Source: Beverwykella pulmonaria
Taxonomy: Eukaryota; Ascomycota; Dothideomycetes; Pleosporales; Melanommataceae
Length of the DNA stretch: 64,000 bases
Direction of reading: 5' to 3'
Assembly (NCBI GenBank): GCA_001599595.1
Contig: BCHH01000001.1
Span: 310,001-374,000, forward strand
Made by a program: the position numbers and the translations under genes
Notes under the pieces: generated by a model
The model's input: the letters and a program-made list of their open reading frames with translations, nothing else
Databases searched by the model: none
What the model was told of the DNA's origin: nothing
In this document: positions 46,561 through 47,849 of the stretch, in pieces
Position numbering within the stretch: position 1 is the first letter of the stretch
Layout: the number at the start of each line of letters is the position of its first letter

Positions 46561-47703
46561 CTCATGACTACTATACCCGAGTCCTCTACATCAATTCTAG
46601 TCATTTACAATTGCAACTACGGTTCAGATATGACTCAGAATTACCGTTTAGGTTTATTGAAGGGGAAAGAGGCCCAAAAATGTTCAGCGATTGTATGACT
46701 TTTCTATATAAAGACTGCTTGTTCTTGTGAGCTGTATGTTATAAACAACCCTGGTCAGTCTTTTGACTCATTGACCCAAGGTTCGTCAATTTGTTTGTTA
46801 GTGTTAGATTAAATAGATGTATTCAACTATATGCACAACGACTTGCTCAACATTAAGCCTCAATACCATTGCATTTATGAAGTAGTCGACAGATCTAAGT
46901 TCGAGCTGCTTCTATAGGAAAACGTGTTCCTGAGATATTTATTCATTCGTATGAGTCTCATAGCTTACTCACGTATCTCATCTCCTCTACACCCCACAAC
47001 GATTACTGTCTTCATAGCCGGGCATTGACCGGCCTTGGATCTCATGGACAGTGTTAAGAAATGAAGAATATATACTTGCATGATTCTTAATTATAAGCAA
47101 ACTGCCCCCTTTTTGCATTCTATCATCACTTCATTCCGTGACGGAATTGTCATCCAGTACCGCTCGTCCCTAATTCAACATGCATGCCGGTATAATTCGT
47201 TGCGCGCACAAATGACATGAACTATTGCAAGGTCTCAACCACATCCTAATCTTGTTGAATATTCAAGCAGGCTGTTTGAAAGTGACTCTTCCAGAGCTAA
47301 AATGTTTGTACCTTTTGGGGCGGAGTTTGCCTCCAGGGCTCGCTCTTCAATCCTAAGATTTATTTGCTTGCATAGTGATACTCTTCTGTCCTTCCAAAGG
47401 CCTGATGACTACAAACTCCAATTTTTCCCTTTGAGGGAACCTTGAACGCAGTGCTGTGTTGCGTCAAGGCAGGAGATAAACAACGGTCGATTGGTGGGAT
47501 ATCACCCCGAGAGAATTTTACCACCCCGGCTGGACTGACTCACTGCCCCACAATGCCCACGAAGAACCCCACTCCCACTGTTAGTTACGATAACGGCCTC
47601 TGAAGCTGCATCAGGCAGCAATTCACAACGCACCATATTTTGGCTATCTATATATTTTTTTTAGTTTCCAAAAAGTTTCCATGAATCATCAAGATATTGA
47701 AAT
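46561..47703. other. AT-rich non-coding stretch
   Basis: Over 1.1 kb of low-GC sequence with no frame longer than about 60 codons. It looks like further decayed sequence continuing from the pseudogenes. No repeat family is recognised. Confidence 0.5.
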
Positions 47704-47839
47704 GGCCCATTGGCGCAATGGTAGCGCGTCAGATTCCAGTTCGTGTGGATCTCCTGAAGGTTAGCTGGTACGTCACCAAATACACTTTCACCAAGTGAAT
47801 GCAATCTAACAAGCAACAGTTCGAATCAGCTATGGGTCA
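47704..47839 (+). tRNA. tRNA-Trp (CCA) with interrupted T-arm
   Basis: Acceptor GGCCCAT (47704-47710) pairs with ATGGGTC (47832-47838), with discriminator A at 47839. The D-arm is GCGC-AATGGTA-GCGC. The anticodon stem begins TCAGA with loop TTCCAG (anticodon CCA at 47736-47738), followed by a 12-nt insert at 47740-47751 in the canonical 37/38 intron position; it contains TGG, complementary to the anticodon, as tRNA introns usually do. The variable loop is AGGTT. The T-stem AGCTG (47763-47767) and T-loop TTCGAAT plus CAGCT (47820-47831) are perfect but separated by a 52-nt insert. A run of five T at 47845-47849 is a Pol III terminator. Without both inserts it is a 72-nt tRNA. One A-C mismatch remains at 31/39. 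Confidence 0.8.
47768..47819 (+). other. Spliceosomal-intron-like insert in the tRNA T-arm
   Basis: The 52-nt segment begins GTACGT, has TCTAAC ten bases before its end and finishes CAACAG: a full fungal spliceosomal intron signature. Exact removal restores a perfect T-arm (AGCTG-TTCGAAT-CAGCT). It holds a small hairpin (CACTT-TCACC-AAGTG). Its last two bases keep AGTTCGAATC, so a near-normal B-box survives. Confidence 0.75.
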
Positions 47840-47844
47840 TTATC

Positions 47845-47849
47845 TTTTT
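47845..47849 (+). terminator. Pol III T-run
   Basis: TTTTT five bases after the tRNA discriminator base. Confidence 0.65.

Follow-up and report, generated by a model that had tools for sequence, protein, structure and literature searches.

Spliceosomal-type introns in a tRNA-Trp gene and other transfer RNA genes of the fungus Beverwykella pulmonaria

In the portion of PMC8450103 available to us, eukaryotic transfer RNA (tRNA) genes are said to have at most one intron, and the removal of tRNA introns is assigned to the tRNA endonuclease; the same portion describes the non-canonical intron search of tRNAscan-SE 2.0 for archaea. Excerpts of PMC4090602 and PMC9602550 place introns at 12/13, 37/38 and 53/54 in the tRNA-Ile(UAU) of the red alga Cyanidioschyzon merolae and at 45/46 and 53/54, among other sites, in archaea, and give nucleomorph tRNA introns of 3–24 nucleotides (nt) whose mechanism is unknown. 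According to an excerpt of PMC5832005, introns are known in the small structured RNAs U6 and U3, those of fungal U3 being normal spliceosomal introns, and in 2017 these two were the only such RNAs known as often intron-interrupted. No description of spliceosomal introns in tRNA genes appeared in the titles and abstract openings of the matches listed from the open-licence literature. Here we describe a tRNA-Trp(CCA) gene in a 64,000-nt window (the whole stretch of DNA that was analysed) of the ascomycete Beverwykella pulmonaria (contig BCHH01000001.1, positions 310,001 to 374,000, forward strand), in which a 52-nt insert splits the T-arm at its stem-loop border, with stem base 53 before it and loop base 54 after it. 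The genome (45.6 Mb in 31 contigs searched) has at least 22 further tRNA genes interrupted in this way, of which four carry two or more such introns; in all, 23 genes with 28 inserts outside position 37/38 were read in it. From the layout of the gene, the splice signals, the covariation of the stems, the paralogs with empty sites and the terminators set out below, we hold it highly probable that the Trp gene is a working nuclear tRNA gene carrying both an endonuclease-type intron at 37/38 and a U2-type spliceosomal intron at 53/54, and that it is probably transcribed by RNA polymerase III (Pol III).

The inserts resemble the introns of fungal U6 and U3 in combining GT-AG ends and a branch motif within small structured RNA genes, and differ from them in occurring in tRNA genes, in many such genes of one genome, in several arms and sometimes with several introns to a gene. 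They are like the introns of C. merolae, nucleomorphs and archaea, as far as the excerpted accounts go, in their sites (12/13, 45/46, 53/54 and others) and in sometimes numbering two or three per gene; those of C. merolae and archaea have a bulge-helix-bulge, whereas the inserts described here are 47–72 nt long (all 28), run GT-CTRAY-AG and are not clearly enriched in that motif. Canonical 37/38 introns are present in many of the same genes (12 nt in Trp) but are unlike the 28 inserts in position, length and signals. Introner-like elements are intron-sized inserts with splice signals that occupy many sites in a genome. The 28 inserts are also intron-sized, with splice signals and at many sites, and differ in that no second genomic copy was found of the three that were searched (Trp, Lys and the Ala insert of L073); the other 25 were compared mutually, and all-against-all comparison of the 28 found similarity only between the inserts of two Asp paralogs. 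Self-splicing group I and group II introns were ruled out by their size, on general knowledge.

In an Rfam scan of the window, the Trp gene was the sole match above the gathering score (RF00005, 47704–47839, + strand, 30.8 bits, cut-off 29), with the T-stem threaded wrongly through the 52-nt insert. A genome-specific covariance model, made from 12 other interrupted tRNAs with Trp left out, returned the 136 nt of the gene as its sole match in the window at E ≤ 1 (47.6 bits, E 5.9e-10). ARAGORN (bacterial code) reported no tRNA in the window, and annotation may miss such genes. An earlier note on this DNA had read the locus as tRNA-Trp with a spliceosomal-type insert in its T-arm, and held that rejection of the tRNA by covariance models would count against it. 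Both models accept the gene, and the reading extends beyond Trp, with splice signals shared across the 28 inserts in 23 genes. Exact excision of the 52 nt leaves a perfect T-arm, as the note had stated: the stem AGCTG/CAGCT pairs 5/5 and the loop TTCGAAT is intact. The double interruption it had proposed is likewise seen in the sequence, with 12 nt at 37/38 and 52 nt at 53/54 (Table 1). The acceptor stem pairs 7/7 with one G·U (by eye), and the cloverleaf, the anticodon CCA and the terminator of a functional tRNA-Trp gene are all present at the sequence level. Folded whole as a single strand, the precursor shows nothing unusual (z −0.77). Taking out the 12 nt leaves, by eye, an A·C mismatch in the anticodon stem at 31.39 (window 47734/47753); Ile(TAT) (L074) and Tyr (L112) likewise appear, by eye, to have a 31.39 mismatch after their anticodon inserts are cut out.

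Table 1. The tRNA-Trp(CCA) gene and its flanking signals, in window coordinates
Feature	Position	Strand	Basis or remark
TATA-like element, TATATATT	47649..47656	+	starts 55 nt upstream of tRNA-Trp
Exon 1 (acceptor 5′ strand, D-arm, anticodon arm up to position 37)	47704..47739	+	RF00005 match
A-box-like TGGCGCAATGG	47711..47721		within exon 1; by eye
Putative 12-nt intron at canonical 37/38	47740..47751	+	cloverleaf position, by eye
Exon 2 (anticodon stem 3′ strand, variable loop, T-stem 5′ strand AGCTG)	47752..47767	+	sequence reading
52-nt spliceosomal-type intron at 53/54	47768..47819	+	splice signals
5′ site GTACGT	47768..47773	+	
Branch motif TCTAAC	47805..47810	+	10 nt after branch A
3′ site CAG	47817..47819	+	
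B-box-like AGTTCGAATCA	47818..47828		borrows AG from the intron's end
Exon 3 (T-loop, T-stem 3′ strand, acceptor 3′ strand, discriminator A)	47820..47839	+	sequence reading
T5 run, Pol III-type terminator	47845..47849	+	sequence reading

Across the 23 genes, the ends of the inserts are GT-AG in 27 of 28 and GC-AG in one, and all 28 finish in AG (CAG 15, TAG 9, AAG 4). Each insert, that of Trp included, has GT/GC...AG ends in just one of its equivalent cuts. A CTRAY branch motif with 9–13 nt after the branch A is found in 24 of 28; over 1000 shuffles, 4.1 of 28 had it on average and 10 of 28 at most. When the 12 inserts found by intron-like patterns are left out, GT remains at 15/16, AG at 16/16 and the branch motif at 13/16; the 5′ site fits G[TC]RNGY in 18/20 inserts not picked by the 5′-site pattern, and CTRAY is present in 20/24 once the inserts selected by the CTRAY pattern are dropped. 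The insert sizes fit three of just four messenger RNA (mRNA) introns predicted in the window from protein alignments, which measure 49, 53, 55 and 214 nt and begin GTAGCA, GTAAGC, GTATGT and GTAAGA.

To these signals the paired stems add a second line of evidence. We aligned the 12 tRNAs with T-loop introns, excising the D-arm intron from three and including four near-duplicate pairs, and found that every cell of the acceptor and T-stem pairs. Both sides change in 7/7 acceptor pairs and 3/5 T-stem pairs (10/12 in total), the other two T-stem pairs being invariant. For the structure as a whole, pairing reaches 91.6% of cells, versus 64.5% after shuffling; the score for covariation, which the tool does not offer as a probability, is 0.821 versus 0.270, with 0/500 shuffles as high; sliding by one column lowers pairing to 53.4% and 57.2%. 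The anticodon helix pairs less (69.5%) because anticodon introns shift its columns. The stems split by the inserts are real. A separate covariance model from the 53/54 cases was dropped, the MAFFT alignment of them being wrong.

Both filled and empty sites were found in otherwise matching genes. Without its insert, Lys(CTT) L114 equals the uninterrupted L018 at 102/102 bases, anticodon intron included; Ala(AGC) L072 and L073 are each 72/72 identical to the uninterrupted L007, their own inserts occupying the same site and showing no BLAST similarity to each other; and Ser(GCT) L022 matches the uninterrupted L013 at 80/81 bases. Either a recent intron gain or an intron loss accompanied by gene conversion would fit such pairs. 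For tRNA-Trp, the genome was searched, with tools that give a lower bound, by a D-arm pattern (4 places, three of them other tRNAs), a whole-gene query and a spliced query, and none found another tRNA-Trp, including the uninterrupted tRNA-Trp(CCA) that the earlier note had proposed to look for. A spliced tRNA-His query, likewise a lower-bound search, matched only its own interrupted gene. The interrupted tRNA-Trp gene thus looks like the genome's sole one. Two origins that the note had entertained gained no support: an introner-like element was not borne out, the genome search for more copies of the 52-nt insert having found none, and a recent death of the Trp gene is improbable, because stems and terminator are intact bar the single mismatch in the anticodon stem and the lower-bound searches turned up no other tRNA-Trp.

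The inserts lie at 6/7, 10/11, 12/13, 15/16, 19/20, 25/26, in the variable region, and at 53/54 and 58/59, and so do not belong to the canonical 37/38 class; we assigned these positions, and the isotypes, by eye. Site 53/54 is filled in Trp, His, Leu(TAG, tentative), Lys(CTT), Gln(CTG) and Tyr, and site 58/59 in Ala(AGC) (two genes), Cys, Ile(TAT), Arg(ACG) (two), Val(AAC), Asp (two), Pro(TGG) and Gly(GCC) (two). Variable-region inserts occur in Ser(GCT) and in a gene that is tentatively Met; inserts in or adjoining the D-arm in Leu(CAG), one Arg(ACG), both Asp genes and, twice, Tyr. Two Leu(TAA) genes (L068, L070) have theirs in the acceptor stem at 6/7, ahead of the A box. The tRNA-Tyr gene (L121 and L112, C10, about 425180–425520) has three GT-AG inserts besides an anticodon insert, and the two tRNA-Asp genes (L118/L082 and L119/L096) have matching D-arm and T-loop inserts, diverged between the copies, and an anticodon-loop insert too.

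These genes came from several searches. RF00005 scored 63 of 1174 candidates genome-wide and gave 39 matches at E ≤ 10. Reading these by eye, we saw an interruption outside 37/38 in 10 and none in 28, with L067 ambiguous; four of the 39 fall under the cut-off, and all four are interrupted genes. The 23 genes comprise 10 from RF00005, one from the D-arm pattern, four from a branch-plus-B-box pattern and eight from a B-box-plus-5′-site pattern. All places matching the latter two patterns were read, yielding 7 interrupted tRNAs among 65 and 12 among 30. Because 13 genes came via patterns, 12 of them intron-directed, 23 is no fraction of the genome, and the excess of 53/54 and 58/59 sites is in part due to the search patterns used. 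L067 (396–465) is an odd tRNA-like match that scores 31.1 bits; its stems are poor, and it may be of mitochondrial origin or interrupted close to its 5′ end.

Transcription signals were next compared between interrupted and uninterrupted genes. A T-run of at least 5 begins 3–16 nt downstream of all 23 interrupted genes. A TATAW between −60 and −15 precedes 13/16 testable interrupted genes and 19/28 uninterrupted ones, versus 4.35% of 2000 random windows; the test dropped seven of the 23, six with too little upstream sequence and Lys, whose row was taken from its paralog. In the 53/54 cases the intron-final AG replaces G52-G53 of the B box (6/6), and because its intron ends in AG the Trp B box is near-normal (AGTTCGAATC). 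In the 58/59 cases the B-box core GGTTCRA is unbroken ahead of the intron (12/12, eight of them found by that motif). T-runs, TATA-like elements and B boxes would all fit Pol III. The same genome holds a U6 small nuclear RNA gene (L075 1501–1650, C3:4042637) with a 55-nt GTAAGT...CTAAC...CAG insert between GGATGACA and CGCTCAATC; this gene has a TATA, a T-run and a B-box-like GGTTCGAATC downstream and, combining Pol III-type signals with a GT-AG insert, offers a precedent for such introns under Pol III. Among 47 of 2265 candidates scored for 5S, 26 matched, 23 of them above the Rfam cut-off and dispersed, the other three weak; no 5S intron is indicated, as the 23 matches above the cut-off, judged by span, cover the full model in 120–121 nt.

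Could the inserts instead be introns of the bulge-helix-bulge kind, which the tRNA splicing endonuclease would remove from unusual positions in the manner of C. merolae and archaea? Their positions do overlap those given in the excerpted accounts of these organisms, and a full central and outer helix fits two of the 28, the paralogous Asp D-arm inserts in a slid register. That is hardly above chance (0.73 expected from shuffled introns, in a test without a positive control), Trp is not one of the two, and in the GT-AG register a full central helix is found in 0/28; nor does a bulge-helix-bulge predict the GT...CTRAY...AG ends that most inserts have. We therefore judge endonuclease cutting of these inserts very improbable. 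Still less probable is that the genes are tRNA pseudogenes, dead copies that acquired intron-sized inserts. Uninterrupted copies do exist for Ala, Ser and Lys, but in 12 genes pairing is complete in both the acceptor and the T-stem, the T-run is retained in all 23, splice signals are not expected to persist in dead copies, and the lower-bound searches found no uninterrupted Trp or His gene.

Spliceosomal introns in genes transcribed by RNA polymerase II (Pol II), the products then being processed into tRNAs, are improbable too, if slightly less so. Splicing is by textbook account usually coupled to Pol II, and an intron ahead of the A box, as in the two Leu(TAA) genes, is awkward for an internal Pol III promoter. 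T-runs at every interrupted gene, an upstream TATA-like element that is the same as in uninterrupted tRNA genes, and an insert of this kind in U6 with its own TATA, T-run and B-box-like element speak against it, and Pol II transcription is not needed to account for the interrupted genes.

Several points besides those Leu(TAA) introns weigh against spliceosomal splicing of functional Pol III tRNA precursors. Pol III transcripts are uncapped, and the exons would be very short, 6 nt inside tRNA-Tyr and about 15 nt at the 3′ end in the T-loop cases. Four of the 28 inserts lack CTRAY at the expected place and four end in AAG. Only one of the four predicted mRNA introns, the longest, has CTRAY (by eye), so that the tRNA inserts lie nearer to the fungal consensus, with signals stricter than these four. 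The intron-directed patterns were not enriched over their reversed controls (65 versus 86 places with the branch motif, 30 versus 42 with the 5′ site), so the evidence rests on the tRNA surrounding each match. Ala(AGC), Ser(GCT) and Lys(CTT) have uninterrupted copies, and the copy-number searches covered Trp and His, with lower-bound tools.

From the sequences we infer Pol III transcription, spliceosomal removal and a functional product. Pol III would probably transcribe the Trp gene from the upstream TATA element and the A and B boxes; the tRNA endonuclease would cut out the 12-nt intron at 37/38, and the spliceosome would remove the 52 nt from the precursor, upon which the T-arm could close and the usual end processing follow.

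Elsewhere in the window, a Cef1/Cdc5 protein is 91% identical to that of Melanomma pulvis-pyrius and 90% to that of Pleomassaria siparia, and an importin is 89% identical to its counterpart in each, which places the fungus within or near this section of the Pleosporales. Among the other tRNAs of the genome, L029 has an apparent CGC anticodon (Ala) on a Pro-like body (by eye).

Together, these results suggest that the cell needs its mRNA-splicing machine for making tRNAs. We think it fairly likely that tRNA processing in this lineage cannot do without the spliceosome, which would act on Pol III transcripts: the sole Trp and His genes, and perhaps Tyr, Asp, Cys and others, would need it, and translation would therefore depend on spliceosomal tRNA splicing, with Tyr needing both machines to handle three spliceosomal introns, a 6-nt internal exon and its anticodon insert. 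Spliceosomal introns in several tRNA arms would break the rule of one intron removed by the endonuclease, as given in the available portion of PMC8450103. The routine action of the spliceosome on Pol III transcripts and the lower limit on spliceosomal exon length may now be tested in this fungus and, because empty and filled sites occur in otherwise identical tRNA genes, so may the origin of new spliceosomal introns.
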